Shown here piece by piece: positions 4,128 through 41,690 of a stretch of 64,000 nucleotides of DNA. Source of the stretch: Phycisphaerae bacterium (GTDB taxonomy: Bacteria; Planctomycetota; Phycisphaerae; UBA1845); the NCBI GenBank assembly GCA_028289375.1, contig JANQQK010000012.1, positions 1 through 64,000 on the forward strand. Reading direction: 5' to 3'. Each line of letters opens with the position of its first letter. The stretch's first letter is position 1. The notes under the pieces were generated by a model that saw only the letters and a list, made by a program, of their open reading frames with translations, searched no databases and was not told the DNA's origin. The position numbers and the translations under genes were made by a program.

Positions 4128-6224
4128 TTACGGGTTGCCCGTTGTCGTATTCCCGGCTGGATCATCCTTCTTCTCCTCAACTGGAAGATCCTCCAGGACG
4201 ACGTCCAACTCCAAACCAAAGACCCAATCATTGTCCATCGCCTCATCGGTCACGGGATCGACAAATTTGGCGTCTGATGACTTTGGCGTCGGTGTCGTCG
4301 GCTTCTTGCCGCGACCACCACGTCCCTTGCCCCAGCCACCTCGTGTAGTCGATGTTGATGCCCCGGACTTCTTGCCCTTTTGGGGCAGCTTTCGGCCACT
4401 GGCGAACACGACCCGATTGATAAAGAACCCGGTCCCGGGCTGACGGCCCGTTTCGAGCAACGCGTCGCGGAACTTGTCTGCAGCGAATCGAATGGTCTCT
4501 TCGTGCGGCGTGCGACACTCGAGCTTGACGTGGAACCCAGGCCGCTTCGCATTGCCCTTGGGCTTGATCACTTGGGGCGCGTCCGCCTTGAGAACCATGT
4601 CCTCCATCTCGACCTCGTCGATTTCGGCGTGGTAGGTCGATTCAAACCGCTCGATGAAGACTTCCTCACGCCGTTCACGACGCAGCACACCCGACCGGTC
4701 TGTTGTGACAGCGTTGATGTAGCTGTCGACATCGGTCACGTCACTGACTTTGTCGCTCGTTTTTGGAAGCGCGGCATGAATGGACGCGAGGATTTTGGGC
4801 CAAACCGCCTTGTTGCGCTGCAACTGGATGAGTTGCTCGCACTTTTTCTTCTCGTCCAAACCCTGCGTTTTGAAGGTGCTCAGCTCTTTGCCAAATGTCT
4901 TGGATACCTGCAGGATCGTGTTCGCTTCCTCACGCGGTCGCAGACCACCGGTGACGCCGGTCTGGAGGATCTGCGTAGCACGATCAAGGTTGACCGGTGG
5001 CGGTGTGTTGCCGGCGTTGGCCTGAAGCGTGCCCATGTCGGACGATTGCCGGAACCAGACGATTCCAGAGGCCAACAACAGACACGCCGCCGACGCCGCA
5101 AAGAACGGCTTTTTCTTACGCCAAACGACCTGTTTGACGATTTCACCGGGCAGCAGGTTGCTGCTGATCGCCGACGTGCCCGGCTGCGACTTGGTGTGCT
5201 CCAACCCCTGCAACGCCAGCCCATAGGCGACGATGTACGGGGACATGTTTTCCTTAAAATTCTCGGTGTCGCGCACGTCCACGACATTCGCGTTGGTGAA
5301 CGTCATGGGCCGTTCAACCGGAAGTTGCAGGTTCTGCTGCAGATACTTCTGAAGCCCGGGCAATTCGAATGCGTTGCCCAACCCAAGAATTCGCACCAGT
5401 TCCGTATCACGGTGCGTCGAGCGGTAGAACCCGAGCGACCGTGACAATTCCTGAACCAGCTCAGCGAACACGGGGCGCATCGCCTGGAAGATCTGGCGTG
5501 CGTACTTGCTCGTCGCCGCCGTGCGCTTGAGGTTTTCTGCCTTGGAGAAGGTGAGCTTGAACGCCTTGACGAGAACGTCCGTGAATTTGTTGCCCCCGAG
5601 CGGGACGGTTCGCGTCCACAGGTTGTGGTTCGTGGCCACGATCAGGTCGGTGTTTTCCGCACCGAGATCGAGGAGCACGCTGGCTTCCTCGGTCAGGCGA
5701 CCCTCGAAATGGAGGGCATTGTAAAGTGCCAGCGGAGAGGACTGCACCACGATCGGTTCGATACCTGCCCGCTCAAATGGCAGCAGGTAGTCGCGAATCA
5801 ACTCCCGCTTCATCGCGAAGATGCCGACCTCGACGTCGGGCGAATCCTCCTCCTGGAACGTCTGAAAGTCCCAGATGACTTCGTCCAGATCAAACGGAAT
5901 CTGCTGATCGGCTTCATACCGAACGATGTCGGGGATCTTTTTGGGCTCGACCGGCGGCAATTTGCTGAATCGGGCGAGGGTGTGTTGGCCGGGGACGCCG
6001 ACGACCACCTTATCCTTGGAAATATCGTTGCGGGCGAGGAATTTCTCGATGGCCGACGAGACCACCTCGTGGCGGTCGGTGTCGGGTTGAGAGAGCATTT
6101 TGGCGTGTTCGATGAGTTCCTGACCGACGATGTCGACCTTTCCGTCGGCCCCGGGGCGCAGCTTGATCGCCTTCAGCGAGCAACGCCCAAGATCAATCCC
6201 CCAGATTGCGGTTGCACCAGCCAT
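4128..6224 (-). CDS. pilM: Type IV pilus assembly PilM-like ATPase with C-terminal TM/PilN-like extension (698 aa)
   Basis: MAGATAIWGIDLGRCSLKAIKLRPG... actin-like PilM fold motifs (VVVGVPGQHTLARFSKLPPV, LLDLGAENTDLIV), TM segment FFAASAACLLLASGIVWF in the second half. Confidence 0.8.
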   Translation of the reverse strand: MAGATAIWGIDLGRCSLKAIKLRPGADGKVDIVGQELIEHAKMLSQPDTDRHEVVSSAIEKFLARNDISKDKVVVGVPGQHTLARFSKLPPVEPKKIPDIVRYEADQQIPFDLDEVIWDFQTFQEEDSPDVEVGIFAMKRELIRDYLLPFERAGIEPIVVQSSPLALYNALHFEGRLTEEASVLLDLGAENTDLIVATNHNLWTRTVPLGGNKFTDVLVKAFKLTFSKAENLKRTAATSKYARQIFQAMRPVFAELVQELSRSLGFYRSTHRDTELVRILGLGNAFELPGLQKYLQQNLQLPVERPMTFTNANVVDVRDTENFKENMSPYIVAYGLALQGLEHTKSQPGTSAISSNLLPGEIVKQVVWRKKKPFFAASAACLLLASGIVWFRQSSDMGTLQANAGNTPPPVNLDRATQILQTGVTGGLRPREEANTILQVSKTFGKELSTFKTQGLDEKKKCEQLIQLQRNKAVWPKILASIHAALPKTSDKVSDVTDVDSYINAVTTDRSGVLRRERREEVFIERFESTYHAEIDEVEMEDMVLKADAPQVIKPKGNAKRPGFHVKLECRTPHEETIRFAADKFRDALLETGRQPGTGFFINRVVFASGRKLPQKGKKSGASTSTTRGGWGKGRGGRGKKPTTPTPKSSDAKFVDPVTDEAMDNDWVFGLELDVVLEDLPVEEKKDDPAGNTTTGNP

Positions 6225-18943: not shown

Positions 18944-20470
18944 TCATACATACCCTGACCGTACCTCGGCCACGTTGCGTCGCAATCGCAGCCAGCGCCG
19001 AAAACTGAACCCGGAGGAGTGGCCGAGCGGCTGAAGGCGACGGTTTTGAAAACCGTTGAACGGGTAACCGTTCCGGGGGTTCGAATCCCTCCTCCTCCGA
19101 TTGCCACCAAATGACATGTCTCGACATTCGTCGTCATTAACCGACTGTGCTGAAGCGACTTGCGCCGATTCGTTTTCCTCGGGTATGTCCTGTGATATGT
19201 CTTGACTTGCGTCATGGTCCGTCACCGTGCGACAACCGCCGTCATGCCCCGTCCGTGCAACATTTGTACAACAACCTTGCTCGCAGGGATTGAAGTCATC
19301 GGTGCCGGTCGCTGCAAGCCCAATCTCGTCACGTTCCGAATCGAGGCTCGGAAGGGCGTCCAAAGCGTTTGCAGCGTCTAAGACGACGCGGTGGCAATAC
19401 CTGTCCATCGTGAGCCCGATCGAGCCGTGGCGAGCCAGGAGTTGGGCGTCCTTGGGGTGGACACCAGGCTTGGCAATGTTAGTGATGAATGTGTGCCTCA
19501 AAGCGTGAAAGTCCGCGACACGATTCGCGGAGTCCCGATATGGGATCTCAGCCGCCTCCAAGTCCTTCTTGATCATTCGACTCACCCCTGTCGGATACGG
19601 CAACTCAAATAGCAGATCACCCTTGGGCCGTGTCGCGACAAATTTGCGAAGTACATCAGCGAACTCGCGGCGAATTGGTTGCACATCTTCTCGCCGGTGC
19701 TTCGAGTATGCTGCGGCCACAGTGACTGTGGGAGGCGTGGAGGTGAGCGATAGGGAGCCAACAGACAGACTGCGAATCTCATTCGCCCTAAGACCGGTCT
19801 CCACCGCGAAACGGTAGAGCATCGCTCTTTGAGGACCGGTCATCCTGAATCGATGTGGGGCGTTTCGGGTCACCTGCAGCAGTGTTTGTAGCTCCACGTC
19901 AGTTAGGGCTCTTCGCTCGTGTCGCTTGTCAGTCTGAACGTTGTAACGCGGCAAGTGCTTTAGGGGGTCATCAGGAGCCCTTCGATCACGAACCATCCAG
20001 CGAGTGAATTGCTTGCATGACGCAAGATAGTGGTTTGCCGTCTGGAGCGAACGCCCTTTGTCGATCAGGTCCTTGATCGCTGACTGAACGAGCGACGCGG
20101 AGATATCCTGCCAACGCTTAAACTGCCGAGCCTCAATGATGGCATTCGCTCGGCTGCGCTGCTGCGTTGCTTGCTTCGGCGAAGTGCTCTTCGCAACCAT
20201 GGAATCGTGCCAGTCGATAAGGTGATCCGATAGCGGCCTACTCATGTGTTCTTCGTACGGATTCAGGAGTCCAGCAGACTCTATGTGAGCCCGTCGAATC
20301 GCCTCCGAGTAGGCGAGCTCTGCTGCTTTTCTGTCTTGCGTCTTGAGTGACATCCGCACCTGCTTGCCAGTGACTGGGTGTCGGAAGAGACCCCACCAGA
20401 CTGTAGACTTCGTGCGCACACGCTGGCCCCGCTTGCCCTTGCGCGTAACAGTTGGCCGGTATACTCCCAT
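18944..20470 (-). CDS. int: Site-specific tyrosine recombinase/integrase; ORF reads antisense through attL into host DNA
   Basis: ETGLRANEIRSL (Arg box), DFHALRHTFITNIA (HxLRH), LLARHGSIGLTMDRYCH (H...Y); N-terminal SAM-like domain; C-terminal RRRRDSNPRNGYPFNGFQNRR is tRNA antisense translation. Confidence 0.92.
   Translation of the reverse strand: MGVYRPTVTRKGKRGQRVRTKSTVWWGLFRHPVTGKQVRMSLKTQDRKAAELAYSEAIRRAHIESAGLLNPYEEHMSRPLSDHLIDWHDSMVAKSTSPKQATQQRSRANAIIEARQFKRWQDISASLVQSAIKDLIDKGRSLQTANHYLASCKQFTRWMVRDRRAPDDPLKHLPRYNVQTDKRHERRALTDVELQTLLQVTRNAPHRFRMTGPQRAMLYRFAVETGLRANEIRSLSVGSLSLTSTPPTVTVAAAYSKHRREDVQPIRREFADVLRKFVATRPKGDLLFELPYPTGVSRMIKKDLEAAEIPYRDSANRVADFHALRHTFITNIAKPGVHPKDAQLLARHGSIGLTMDRYCHRVVLDAANALDALPSLDSERDEIGLAATGTDDFNPCEQGCCTNVARTGHDGGCRTVTDHDASQDISQDIPEENESAQVASAQSVNDDECRDMSFGGNRRRRDSNPRNGYPFNGFQNRRLQPLGHSSGFSFRRWLRLRRNVAEVRSGYV
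19013..19099 (+). tRNA. tRNA-Ser (anticodon TGA)
   Basis: GGAGGAG/CTCCTCC acceptor stem, ACGGT-TTTGAAA-ACCGT anticodon arm (TGA), long variable arm (GAACGGGTAACCGTTC region), GGTTCGAATCC T-loop; CCA not encoded. Confidence 0.95.
19034..19101 (+). repeat. attL: 68-bp direct repeat = 3' part of tRNA-Ser
   Basis: aaggcgacggttttgaaaaccgttgaacgggtaaccgttccgggggttcgaatccctcctcctccgat identical to 41601-41668. Confidence 0.95.
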
Positions 20471-20471
20471 G

Positions 20472-20690
20472 CTACCTATTCCTTCGTTTTATCAGCTCTA
20501 GGTCGAGCACATTGGCGAGCTTCGACAGTGTCGACAACGTTACGTCGGCGCCGTCGTTCACCAGAGCGTGCAAGCTGGCGTAGCCGACGCCACTCTCGCG
20601 CGCGAGCGCGAAGATTGACTTGCCGGATACGTCAATTGCTCGAATCAGTTGGCGCCGAATGTCCTCTTGCTTCATGTTTCGTCGTCCCAT
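20472..20690 (-). CDS. Xre/Cro-type HTH regulator
   Basis: VSGKSIFALARESGVGYASLHALVNDGADVTLSTLSKLANVLDLEL. Confidence 0.8.
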   Translation of the reverse strand: MGRRNMKQEDIRRQLIRAIDVSGKSIFALARESGVGYASLHALVNDGADVTLSTLSKLANVLDLELIKRRNR

Positions 20691-25644: not shown

Positions 25645-26331
25645 TTGGGCTCGAACTCGCTACTCACAGAACGCGGAATGGTGCGTCGGGCGCTACCTCA
25701 GATATATCCCGCACTCGACATCTGCAAGGAGCACTTCCGCGCGACAAAGGAGCTGACAGTCGGCAAGAGCATTGCGGATGTAGTCTTCTACAAATCAAAC
25801 GACCTTGCAGCATGGCCCGAGGCTCCCCTGTCCGCAACCGAGAGCGTGATTCTCTCGATCGTGCGGCTTCGAAACTCTGCGCGGCTGGACACGATTGCAC
25901 GACACACGTACCTCCCCATTGACGAGGTAGAGGCAGCGGTCATGGGGCGTCTCGTGGCATGGGGCCTCGTGCGGGTGAGGGCGCGTGGCGTCGTTGAGGC
26001 GACGCGGGAGTGGGTCGAGCAGTCAGAGATAATCGCGATCGAGGCGAAGCTGACGAAGTGGAGAGACGCACTCGATCAGGCGATCGAATACCGACACTAC
26101 TCTGATCGTTCGTATGTTCTCCTGCCTGACTATTGCGTCGAGATCGCGATTCGAAACATTCATAAGTTCAAGCAAGCAGGCGTCGGACTCCTTTCTTACA
26201 GTCCAAGGGCAGTCGAAAAGATCCTCGACGCAATGCCGAGCCGAAGGCACCTCTGGCATCGCGAGTACGCTCTGTCGAGGTTGACCCAGAACAGAAGCGG
26301 GAGGGCGACCCGTGTCCGACGAACTGATTGA
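25645..26331 (+). CDS. Putative PD-(D/E)xK-like protein with inserted winged-helix domain (228 aa)
   Basis: KSIADVVFY ... wHTH (LSATESVILSIVRLRNSARLDTIARHTYLPIDEVEAAVMGRLVAWGLVR) ... EIIAIEAKLTKWRDALDQAIEYRHYSDRSYVLLP (ExK then Q); AAGGAG upstream of TTG start. Confidence 0.55.
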   Translation: MGSNSLLTERGMVRRALPQIYPALDICKEHFRATKELTVGKSIADVVFYKSNDLAAWPEAPLSATESVILSIVRLRNSARLDTIARHTYLPIDEVEAAVMGRLVAWGLVRVRARGVVEATREWVEQSEIIAIEAKLTKWRDALDQAIEYRHYSDRSYVLLPDYCVEIAIRNIHKFKQAGVGLLSYSPRAVEKILDAMPSRRHLWHREYALSRLTQNRSGRATRVRRTD

Positions 26332-27118
26332 ACACATCCGACGTCATCTGCCCGGCGGTGTTGAGATCGAGGGTCCGTTAGCTGGAGGCGGCCAGGGTGC
26401 GGTGCTGAAGGGAACCGCCGACGGCGCACCTGCGGCGATCAAAGTCTTCCGGCCTGACACTGATCACCGCCGCGTGGATCGCGAGATCGAGCTTCTCTCC
26501 ACGCTGGACTGTCCGAGGGTCGTAAAGCTCTTGCGGGCCGAGACGCTCACAATCAACGGAGAGAGCCTTCGACTCATCGCTTACGAATTGCATGACGGTG
26601 GGGATCTGACGCGCCACCTCGACACCCACGCTGCAGCCCTCACGCCAGATCAGTTGGTAAAGATTGGGTGCGAAGTAAGTTCGGCGGTCCACGCGCTTTG
26701 GCGTCGGAAGATCGTGCATCGCGATATCAAACCAGCAAACATCGTCGAGGGAAATGACGGCGGTTGTGTCCTTGTGGACGTTGGACTCGCACGACACGTC
26801 GATCGCTCCAATATTACGATTGTGGGTGCGCCTGGTACGCGAGGATTTCGATCCCCGGAGCAAGCATTAGGGCGGAAGTCGCTCACGATCCACTCCGATG
26901 CGTGGTCGCTCGGAGTGACGTTGTACATGTTGGCGACCAAGTACCATCCGTTCGCGGGGCAGGATGTCGTCAACCCCGCTACGGTCGATCTCGGTCCGCT
27001 CGACAGGCGTGGTGACCTGGATCGCCGATTTATCGATACGATTGGCCAGATGCTCAGCTTCGTTCCCGCTCGGCGTCCGTCTAATCTCGTGGAGCGTTTC
27101 ACTTCGCTAGGAGGATGA
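26312..27118 (+). CDS. Hanks-type Ser/Thr protein kinase, single domain, no TM
   Basis: Gly loop LAGGGQGAVLKG, AAIKVF, HRDIKPANIV, DVGLARH (DFG variant), GTRGFRSPEQ, DAWSLGVTLYMLATKYHPF; GTG start overlapping previous ORF. Confidence 0.92.
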   Translation: MSDELIEHIRRHLPGGVEIEGPLAGGGQGAVLKGTADGAPAAIKVFRPDTDHRRVDREIELLSTLDCPRVVKLLRAETLTINGESLRLIAYELHDGGDLTRHLDTHAAALTPDQLVKIGCEVSSAVHALWRRKIVHRDIKPANIVEGNDGGCVLVDVGLARHVDRSNITIVGAPGTRGFRSPEQALGRKSLTIHSDAWSLGVTLYMLATKYHPFAGQDVVNPATVDLGPLDRRGDLDRRFIDTIGQMLSFVPARRPSNLVERFTSLGG

Positions 27119-34794: not shown

Positions 34795-37017
34795 ATGCGA
34801 TCGATTTCCGCCGTTGTCTTTGTATTTCATGTTGCGTGTCTTTCCGTCAGTACCACGCTCGCACACTTTTCATTCATCATACCGTCCGAGGATTCGCTCT
34901 CGGCCAAGATCATCATGGCCGAGACACTTGATGATACTGAATCGATCAGTGTCCGGTTTTTGGGTGACATGACGCTGTATCAGAAATCTCGCAGGGGCGA
35001 TGTAGCAGTCCTTCGCACCAAACCAATCGATGACAAAACACTGCAGGTCGAGTCACGCGGAGAGGGCACGCGAGTAATCTACGGCAAGGCCGATCTGGGC
35101 GTCATGGAGCGAGGATCGACCCCACACCATCTGATCTACCATCCAAAATCCATCATCGGCAATCCATATGACGACGCGACCCGGCTGGACGACGCGTCAC
35201 CAATCGAGTTGATCCCGGTCCTTGCGTCCACTGACGGCCAATTTCGGCTTCAGCTTGTCGTCTCCGGCGCACCAAAACCCGAATCGGAAGTGACGATGAT
35301 CTTCCCCGACGGCACTGTCGAAGTGGTTGTGACCGATCAAGATGGAATGACCACGAGCTTTGAAGCGTCCGGGCGGTATGCCGCGTGGGCGCGCCATTGG
35401 GATGAAACGCCAGGTGTACTGAACGGCAAGATGTTCCAACAGGTGCGTCACTACGCAACAATCGTTCTTGACGCCGACGGTGATCAGTCCACTCAGTCAG
35501 CTATCGATAGAGCGTCGGACGATTCAGGTGTTGCCAGATGGATCGACCTGCCAATCGCGACAGCGAGTTTCGGCGCAGTGGCTTCTCGGGGTTGGTTGTA
35601 CCTTTATGGTGGGCATACTGCGGTTCCACACGAATACCACACAAGCTCGTCATCTGGTGAATTCTGGCGACTGGACCTAACGGAGCCAAGCGATTGGCAG
35701 TCGCTGCCAGGGGGTGTCTCACTTCAGGGGATGAATCTTGCAGCCGTAGACGGGCTGATCTATCGCGTGGGTGGCATGCGATCACTAAACGAGATTGGAG
35801 AACCTGCCGACAACCGCTCTATCGCAGATTGTGCGGTCTTTGACCCTGCGTCCATGTCGTGGAGAGAATTGCCTGATCTGCCCGTGCCTCGCTCATCGCA
35901 TGACGTGGTGGCCGTTGGCCGAACATTGTACGTGTTGGGTGGTTGGCAGATGCAGCACAACGGGCCATCGGTGTGGGCAAGCGCGATGTTCGCGCTCGAT
36001 CTGGATCAGAAGGAACCCAATTGGGAGCGACTAGCACAGCCATTTCATCGTCGCGCGCTCATAGCCGCTGCTGTTGACGAGCACATTTACGTAATGGGTG
36101 GGTTCGGCGAAACGAACAAACCGAGTCGTCGCGTCGAAGTGTACAACACGGTGACCCGCAAATGGTCTGAAGGTCCCGATCTGCCAGGACGACGGATTAA
36201 CGGCTTCGCGCCCGCGTCCTGCACGCACGATGGCCGACTCTTGGTCAGCGTCGGAGATGGCACGTTGTATCGCTTGTCGGAAAATCGTAAGTCGTGGGAA
36301 GCTGTTGCCGAAACAACGCCGCGCATCGTACATCGCATGGTTCCAGCAGGCGCTCGGGTACTTGTGATGGGCGGCGCGGCTGACGGTGATGTCATCAATC
36401 TACTTGAATCTGTCCGCCTGTCTCAGCCCGGTGCGGGAGCGGAAACGACTGAATCGGCGACTGCATCGCGTCGTCGGGTGACCTCTGCAGACGCTGGTGA
36501 CAAGCACGCGCCCCATGCCATTGCATCAGGGCAGACTACGCGGGTAGAGGCTGATGCGCCCTCGGAACAGAGTCCCCGAACGACGAGCAAATCCGCGGAA
36601 AAAGACCCGATCGCACTTGGCCAGACGATGTGTCCAGTCATGACGTCCAAGCGCGTTAACCATGAGAGCCCAGTCGCAGTCTATCGGGGGCGTCCTGTTG
36701 CTCTGTGCTGCGAAACTTGCCTAGCCAAGTGGGACAGGAATCCCGATTCGTACGCGGCAGTCGCCCAGATCCCGCAATTGCGAGGCTTAATCGTTGCGCC
36801 GCGAAAAATCGAGCAGGTCTACTGCCCAGTCTACAAAGATCGCGTTGTCACGTCGGACGACCCATCCGTCGAATATCTTGGCAAGACGATCCACCTATTC
36901 AATCGAGCAGCAGTTCGCCGCTGGAATGACGATCCGAAGAGACACGCTGACGTGGATGTGTTGCCGCAGCTGCGAAATCCTTCAAAGGAACGAACGATCG
37001 CTCAATCGAGCGATTGA
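34795..37017 (+). CDS. DUF4198-like domain + Kelch repeats + two YHS-like modules (740 aa), exported
   Basis: N-term AHFSFIIPSEDS...(DUF4198-like); Kelch GWLYLYGGHTA, LIYRVGGMRS, TLYVLGGWQM, HIYVMGGFGE; CPVMTSKRVNHESPVAVYRGRPVALCCETCLAKWDRNPDSY and second CPVYKDRVV... Confidence 0.75.
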   Translation: MRSISAVVFVFHVACLSVSTTLAHFSFIIPSEDSLSAKIIMAETLDDTESISVRFLGDMTLYQKSRRGDVAVLRTKPIDDKTLQVESRGEGTRVIYGKADLGVMERGSTPHHLIYHPKSIIGNPYDDATRLDDASPIELIPVLASTDGQFRLQLVVSGAPKPESEVTMIFPDGTVEVVVTDQDGMTTSFEASGRYAAWARHWDETPGVLNGKMFQQVRHYATIVLDADGDQSTQSAIDRASDDSGVARWIDLPIATASFGAVASRGWLYLYGGHTAVPHEYHTSSSSGEFWRLDLTEPSDWQSLPGGVSLQGMNLAAVDGLIYRVGGMRSLNEIGEPADNRSIADCAVFDPASMSWRELPDLPVPRSSHDVVAVGRTLYVLGGWQMQHNGPSVWASAMFALDLDQKEPNWERLAQPFHRRALIAAAVDEHIYVMGGFGETNKPSRRVEVYNTVTRKWSEGPDLPGRRINGFAPASCTHDGRLLVSVGDGTLYRLSENRKSWEAVAETTPRIVHRMVPAGARVLVMGGAADGDVINLLESVRLSQPGAGAETTESATASRRRVTSADAGDKHAPHAIASGQTTRVEADAPSEQSPRTTSKSAEKDPIALGQTMCPVMTSKRVNHESPVAVYRGRPVALCCETCLAKWDRNPDSYAAVAQIPQLRGLIVAPRKIEQVYCPVYKDRVVTSDDPSVEYLGKTIHLFNRAAVRRWNDDPKRHADVDVLPQLRNPSKERTIAQSSD

Positions 37018-37098: not shown

Positions 37099-38229
37099 TC
37101 AGCGAAGTAGTCGCACAGCGAGCTCACCCAATTCAGCAGCCGCGGTGAGTTTTTCTGGAGTGGCTGTCAAGTTGGCCAAGCAAATGATCGTCACGTCGCG
37201 ATCCGGCAAGTATACCGCGAACGCGGAATACCCCGGCACATCGCCTGTGCTGCCGATCCCACCGTTCTGACGAGCAATGTGGAACCCATACTCGATCTGT
37301 TCGTAACCGATGTCGATCCAGTCGAATAGCGCCACGCGACCTGTTTCGCCCACCAGCTCACCGCGCGAAGCTGCACGCGTAAACTTCGCCAAATCATCCA
37401 TCGTGCTATACATGTCGCCGGACGCACCCCAAACGCTTCCGCTCCAGTCGGTCGCATCGAACCAGAAGTCACCATACCGAACGAGGTTGTCCCTCTGTCC
37501 AAAGCGATAACCGCGCGGCGTCGGCGTAGGTACGCGACTCCCATGTGGATACCCCGTATGCGACAGACCAAGGCGTCGAACGATACGATCGTCAACAGCC
37601 TCGTACCACGGCTTGCCAGTGACCGCATCAATAATCTCACCGAGCAGGATGGTGTTGCTATTGGAGTACATCCATCCCTCACCTGGCGGGAAGAGCGGTT
37701 CCATCGACCACGTATAAGCGAGAATCTCCTCAGCCTTCCACTGCCGATCCGGCTCCGATTGCAGCGCCTTCTGGAGCTTGGGATTGGCCATCTCACGCGG
37801 AATTCCGCTGGTGTGGTAGCCCAGCATGGCGACAGTGATGTTTTCACCGTTTGGAACCACGCCCGGCAAGTACTTTGAAACTGAGGCATCGAGCTCCAGA
37901 ATTCCCTCGTCGACGAGCTGCAGGATGACTTGACCGACAAATAGCTTCGTGACGCTCGCGATACGGAAGTGATCGCCGCGGAGAATCGGCCGGCTGCGGT
38001 CTTCGTCGGCGAAGCCAAGCGGCAAAAAGAGCGCCGGTTCTGTTTCCGCACCTCGATAGATGCCGAACACCGCACCCGGTGTCTGCAGCGTCTCAAACTG
38101 GCGAGATAGCTGCGTGCGAATGTGATTCAGAGGCAGCCCGTCGGAACTGGTAACGGCGGGGCCGGTCAATGCGCACCCCGCCGCGATCAGTCCGAATACC
38201 GTGACAAACAAGCGAGTGAATTTGCTCAT
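37099..38229 (-). CDS. Serine hydrolase, beta-lactamase/class C PBP family, lipoprotein
   Basis: SVTKLF (SxxK), GWMYSNSNTILLGEI (YSN), lipobox GLIAAGCAL. Confidence 0.88.
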   Translation of the reverse strand: MSKFTRLFVTVFGLIAAGCALTGPAVTSSDGLPLNHIRTQLSRQFETLQTPGAVFGIYRGAETEPALFLPLGFADEDRSRPILRGDHFRIASVTKLFVGQVILQLVDEGILELDASVSKYLPGVVPNGENITVAMLGYHTSGIPREMANPKLQKALQSEPDRQWKAEEILAYTWSMEPLFPPGEGWMYSNSNTILLGEIIDAVTGKPWYEAVDDRIVRRLGLSHTGYPHGSRVPTPTPRGYRFGQRDNLVRYGDFWFDATDWSGSVWGASGDMYSTMDDLAKFTRAASRGELVGETGRVALFDWIDIGYEQIEYGFHIARQNGGIGSTGDVPGYSAFAVYLPDRDVTIICLANLTATPEKLTAAAELGELAVRLLR

Positions 38230-41414: not shown

Positions 41415-41600
41415 CTAGTGTCGGCCCGTGGACAGATACGAGTCTACTGCTCGCACCACGAGAGCCTTCACGTCGGGCGGTACATCAGACTCCATGATTA
41501 GTCGGATTGCACGCTCGGCCTCGTCGGAGTTTGCGCGCTTCGGTACAACATTTGTACAACATTCGGCGGAAATCGGCGTTTCTGAGAACGGCAAGGGGGT
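41415..41600 (-). other. Open reading segment in the integrase frame at the element right end (would be the Int C-terminus in the excised circle)
   Basis: In frame across the 68-bp core: TPLPFSETPISAECCTNVVPKRANSDEAERAIRLIMESDVPPDVKALVVRAVDSYLSTGRH* (61 codons, TAG at 41415-41417). Confidence 0.6.
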
Positions 41601-41668
41601 AAGGCGACGGTTTTGAAAACCGTTGAACGGGTAACCGTTCCGGGGGTTCGAATCCCTCCTCCTCCGAT
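41601..41668 (+). repeat. attR: 68-bp direct repeat (truncated tRNA-Ser copy)
   Basis: Identical to 19034-19101; upstream 5' part of tRNA (GGAGGAGTGGCCGAGCGGCTG) absent. Confidence 0.95.
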
Positions 41669-41690
41669 CAAAACCAGGCGTTGTCGCACG

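Follow-up and report, generated by a model that had tools for sequence, protein, structure and literature searches.

A planctomycete integrative element whose integrase gene contains its own attachment site and exchanges a conserved C-terminal hairpin on integration

A 22,567-bp element is inserted in tRNA-Ser(TGA) within the window, the whole stretch of 64,000 nucleotides analyzed here, which its relatives place in a Phycisphaerae MAG. We consider it likely that this element carries its attachment site inside its own integrase gene, that a full-length, hairpin-bearing integrase (Int) performs integration, and that the integrated form is less active or altered. In the circle, as reconstructed, the gene would encode in turn the Int body, a linker with an arm site, the core, a second arm site and then the hairpin and stop. 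Recombination at the core would strand the hairpin exon at attR, and the body would then run on into antisense tRNA and host DNA. Reading frames in relatives indicate that this layout is a family-wide design in Planctomycetota.

The element has an intact tRNA at one end, a repeat of the tRNA 3' fragment at the other and an adjacent int gene, as expected for a tRNA-targeted integrative element. The host tRNA-Ser(TGA) (19012..19100, plus strand; ARAGORN) is intact, having been restored by the element. The core copy at attL (19034..19101) comprises the 3' 67 nt of the tRNA plus one base and is identical over 68 bp to the copy at attR (41601..41668), a tRNA-Ser 3' fragment. A second ARAGORN tRNA call (41581-41669) was rejected because it joins this fragment to an unrelated 5' part. 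We sought an empty site in a sister species (G088), where the host flanks are not conserved. Cargo genes (window positions 26312-27118, 34795-37017 and 37099-38229) include those for a protein kinase, a kelch-repeat protein and a beta-lactamase-fold protein. The element ORFs that were scanned with Pfam include no phage structural gene. Directly before int is a gene for a 72-aa Cro/C1-type helix-turn-helix (HTH) protein (20472..20690, minus strand; PF13443, E 1.1e-6), a candidate regulator or excision factor. A short HTH gene of similar kind precedes int in several relatives. The same genome holds a sister element (L036 with L056; G000 contig 6, int near 4791-6137) in tRNA-Thr. It has the opposite orientation, with a 141-bp repeat over the 5' part of the tRNA, and its Int tail is swapped too.

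In the integrated state, the integrase frame (18944..20470, minus strand) encodes a 508-aa tyrosine recombinase (PF00589, E 7.9e-16). From the ATG at 20470, 1437 nt (479 codons) lead up to the outer edge of the core, which supplies the final 23 codons that the two forms of the protein share. The int frame has no stop inside the element; the stop of the integrated form lies at 18944-18946, and the last 29 codons of that form are host DNA, including the 5' part of the tRNA. When attP is reconstructed in silico, the frame crosses the core and continues for 61 codons plus a stop (41600-41415), giving 540 aa. This detached tail (41415..41600, minus strand; tail profile E 1.2e-16) continues int only once the element is excised, here in the reconstructed circle. 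Recomputation returned the lengths of 508 aa (integrated) and 540 aa (circular) and the 61-codon tail claimed in a sequence-only reading, with an identical tail sequence. Taken alone, 61 open codons would arise by chance with a probability of about 12%, which is weak evidence; the significance of the open frame comes from relatives.

The assignment to the tyrosine recombinases is based on the PF00589 domain, the catalytic signature and a fold like those of lambda Int and XerA. Residues R228, K257, H322, R325, H348 and Y358 are invariant among homologues. The catalytic tyrosine is residue 358, and the core starts after residue 456.

A tRNA or T-arm lies downstream in 70 of 80 close homologues from public genomes. 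Homologous integrases that end before the tRNA core had been suggested as evidence against the exchange, but the int frame stays open into the tRNA in 65 of these 70, where about 15% would be expected for that distance. The tRNA targets of the family include Arg, Ser, Cys, Leu, Lys, SeC, Asp, Phe, Met and Thr. The antisense T-arm is read in all three phases among the elements, which argues that the int reading frame is no accident of tRNA sequence. Sense-oriented tRNA targets also exist in the family. Selenocysteine tRNA genes are recurrent targets (L046, L048, L242, L269 and L275).

For 18 elements, both att sites were mapped by the core repeat and then joined in silico. The frame was open beyond the core and reached a common tail motif in 16. 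With further loci, the tail lies at attR in phase and with no intervening stop in 22 of 23 elements. Adding an IMG/VR prophage (contig IMGVR_UViG_3300050015_001122) makes the count 23/24, where the denominator comprises elements with both att sites mapped and the tail found, and the phase test is partly circular for the 17 tails that were used in building the tail model. Seven in-phase cases (L158, L214, L217, L245, L253, L255 and the IMG/VR prophage) come from outside model-building. In the single exception (G094) the tail is present at attR, but int is frameshifted with a stop before the core, and is degenerate. One further candidate relative (G028), which has both att sites, no tail and an int that stops early, was rejected as lying outside the group.

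The tail is conserved among relatives, a check that the sequence-only reading had proposed. Its consensus is DPDLAxVxxAWPxLPxAVRAGIVAMVRA (in a fuller rendering, DPDLAAVVAAWPxLPEAVRAGIVAMVRAA). Between the window element and its sister on contig 6 of G000, the tail has dN of 0.21 and dS of 1.25 (dN/dS about 0.17), and the pre-core linker has dN of 0.62 and dS of 0.95. The tail is real coding sequence, and it is under purifying selection. The window tail is itself divergent, being about 10-20% identical to most other tails over the tail alignment. Searching with the tail profile gave matches in 80 of 114 genomes from the order and in 104 of 392 genomes sampled from the phylum. Among distinct detached tails, a tRNA signature occurs within 400 nt on the 5' side in 60/76 and on the 3' side in 0/76; some of the 16 without a 5' signature resemble other targets or other proteins. 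The module has no match in Pfam or NCBIfam, nor by sequence among PDB structures, and a tblastn search of a free-phage protein against 50,697 phage records gave no match. A degenerate DNA pattern search of viral contigs returned few real tails.

The hairpin motif also ends proteins that are not integrases (L127:540-2156, plus strand; L130, minus strand), one of them a Ser/Thr kinase-like protein beside a sigma-factor-like gene, and planctomycetes may use it more generally as a docking module. Another recombinase group (L132, L279, L282 and L289) has the same terminal hairpin after a GLEPP/GLEHP...GGAESGA stretch and is without a recognized tRNA arm; its target is perhaps different. At one locus (L142; G085 contig 439) two detached tails occur in a row, about 850 bp apart, suggesting stacked integrations. 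A tandem array of this kind would reconnect one int with a tail.

Natural free forms were identified in two distinct viral contigs (L155 and L180; 43 and 49 kb), each of which encodes one uninterrupted int-core-tail gene, of 573 and 528 aa, respectively. In order, the gene comprises the Int body, the antisense T-arm of a tRNA fragment, the tail and the stop, without a complete tRNA. Phage genes, including those for terminase and helicase, lie on both sides. A contig from another sample starts inside the L155 gene and is identical over 121 residues. These contigs are the predicted attP state, seen directly. Also found was a fused gene in G054 (C250; L126), which was not counted as free-form evidence because its body is decayed. 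The sequence-only reading had claimed that integration rewrites the Int C-terminus and had suggested looking for the tail in homologous free elements. The two phage contigs encode it fused to Int, and together with tail conservation these fused genes support the claim.

Structure prediction with AlphaFold was carried out on the natural free-phage Int of L155 rather than on the joined 540-aa sequence, and the window tail was folded alone. The L155 model is multi-domain and lambda-Int-like, with PDB matches to XerA, lambda Int and Tn1549 Int. Residues 423-536 are predicted to be disordered, forming a linker of about 115 residues, and are followed by a terminal helical hairpin. The window tail model has helices at residues 25-37 and 42-57, with block pLDDT >90 over the hairpin core. 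Tail alignment and model together place the conserved two-helix hairpin at tail residues 24-57 (41430..41531, minus strand).

Each element has a 15-24-bp direct repeat on both sides of the core, within the disordered stretch, and the repeat often consists of two half-repeats about one helical turn apart. These repeats are element-specific (own mean score 15.9 vs 8.3 cross-element, p 6e-14). From their position, and by comparison with lambda Int, they are probably arm-type Int sites. In the window, the putative site upstream of the core (19258..19273, minus strand; TGTTGTACAAATGTTG in the int sense) is in the int frame, and the same 16 bp recur on the other side of the core in the tail coding sequence (41546..41561, minus strand). 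Because the DNA sites fall in the disordered stretch, the attachment site seems to sit in a part of Int, the linker, where any sequence is tolerated.

Full-length Int would be the form that performs integration in a newly entered or excised circle. Selection acts on the hairpin although it is attached to Int solely when the element is free (or in tandem). Thus, we infer that it serves the free form, most simply in integration, and most probably by making a protein contact within the integration complex. The integrated, hairpin-less Int would be less active or altered in specificity, the direction of the change being suggested by analogy with phage Mx8. Integration would in this way throttle its own reversal until another factor acts, which could be an excision factor, or else full-length Int supplied by a relative that enters the cell or by a tandem copy. 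Most Int bodies in the integrated state are intact, and the truncated protein may therefore retain a function instead of being turned off altogether. As Mx8 Int is active with changed specificity when integrated, according to the original reports as relayed in PMC6070905, "latch" may be too strong a term. By this C-terminal swap the element may lock its own integration or redirect it. More tentatively, and at somewhat less than even confidence, these elements may represent phylum-wide self-editing bacterial integrases, with attP in a disordered linker and a free-state-only hairpin that licenses integration, so that gene connectivity sets direction independently of a separate regulator.

Could int merely read through stop-poor antisense tRNA and the DNA beyond, with a meaningless tail? 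Antisense T-arms are indeed stop-poor, and an open run of this length has by itself a chance of about 12%. Against this stand a conserved amino-acid motif, the 23/24 in-phase tails, purifying selection and intact natural phage genes; we regard chance read-through as a most improbable account that the conserved in-phase tail has already refuted. It is scarcely more credible that right-end DNA is kept for arm sites, with an incidental reading frame. Arm-type repeats do fall in the tail region, but they precede the hairpin motif and differ completely between elements, and what is conserved in the hairpin is the protein sequence, dN being far lower than dS.

Two other alternatives accept the tail as protein. 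It might be translated alone from attR in the lysogen and work in trans as a peptide, for instance one that governs directionality or immunity, and at most attR sites the tail frame is open back through the core into host DNA. However, the host flank differs in every element and the fused form alone explains the selection, making a separate peptide very unlikely. Possible, if on balance doubtful, is a directionality switch in which the tail suppresses excision and the 508-aa integrated form is a dedicated excisionase-competent recombinase. The largely intact int bodies of integrated elements would fit such a switch, as would the report that Mx8 Int is changed and not inactivated on integration (PMC6070905). 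The new C-termini, however, vary at random in sequence and in length (from 0 to hundreds of residues), so that the signal could lie only in losing the tail and not in acquiring another. We favor integration by full-length Int, followed by reduced or altered activity of the integrated form.

The principle is already known from Mx8, archaeal SSV-type integrases and the rumA integrative and conjugative elements (ICEs); the C-terminal module is unnamed. According to a 2021 review, only archaea have recombinases that disrupt their own gene (PMC8371274). In bacteria, Mx8 and the rumA ICEs show a milder form confined to the C-terminus, and each has been known as an isolated example; across Planctomycetota, this principle is the regular design of dozens of elements and phages. 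In the open-licence literature we found no report of an int C-terminal swap in Planctomycetota. Many independent natural pairs now allow tests of what an exchangeable Int C-terminus does. In integrated planctomycete elements, the annotated integrases end in spurious tRNA-derived sequence, and the tail left behind can serve as a marker for attR.

Archaeal SSV-type "suicidal" integrases likewise have attP inside the integrase gene, which is changed by integration into a tRNA gene (PMC8371274). There, the catalytic domain is parted from the N-terminal part, leaving inactive pieces, whereas here the core lies past the catalytic tyrosine (after residue 456, with Tyr 358), the body and its catalytic domain remain undivided, and only a C-terminal accessory module is lost. 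The streptococcal rumA ICEs resemble the window element in having an att site within the integrase gene and a C-terminus exchanged at integration (PMC4701971). They differ in using a serine recombinase and a protein-coding target, and in that both proteins exchange ends. The sequence-only reading had pointed to mycobacteriophages as precedent. In BPs and its relatives a gene spanning attP does change its C-terminus on integration (PMC4557955), but that gene is the repressor. Integration-dependent immunity entails an attP within the repressor gene and a repressor that sheds a degradation tag on integration; here attP lies in int and no repressor spans it. The precedent is thus a looser match than Mx8, whose attP is in the integrase gene itself.

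Myxococcus phage Mx8 is the closest precedent. As in the window element, an attP core (the tRNA 3' part, antisense) lies inside a tyrosine integrase gene, in frame, and the frame continues in the free form to a different C-terminus, which is replaced beyond the core on integration. One review reports that integration replaces 112 Int residues by 13 with a less active product (PMC4701971), and another that integrated Int is not inactivated, its specificity being changed (PMC6070905). The int gene of the free Mx8 genome carries an antisense T-arm, as do the free phage genes here. Its small HTH excisionase gene, uoi, overlaps the int start, and the window HTH gene abuts int. The arrangement of putative arm sites in the linker was worked out on the planctomycete elements. 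By sequence, the window Int does not belong to the Mx8 Int family in body or tail: the Int bodies show no significant similarity (BLASTP E 1.9), both matching only the broad phrog_1, and the Mx8 tail scores 2 bits against the hairpin profile, which is no match. Mx8 is a single phage lineage, whereas the planctomycete family is phylum-wide and uses many tRNAs.
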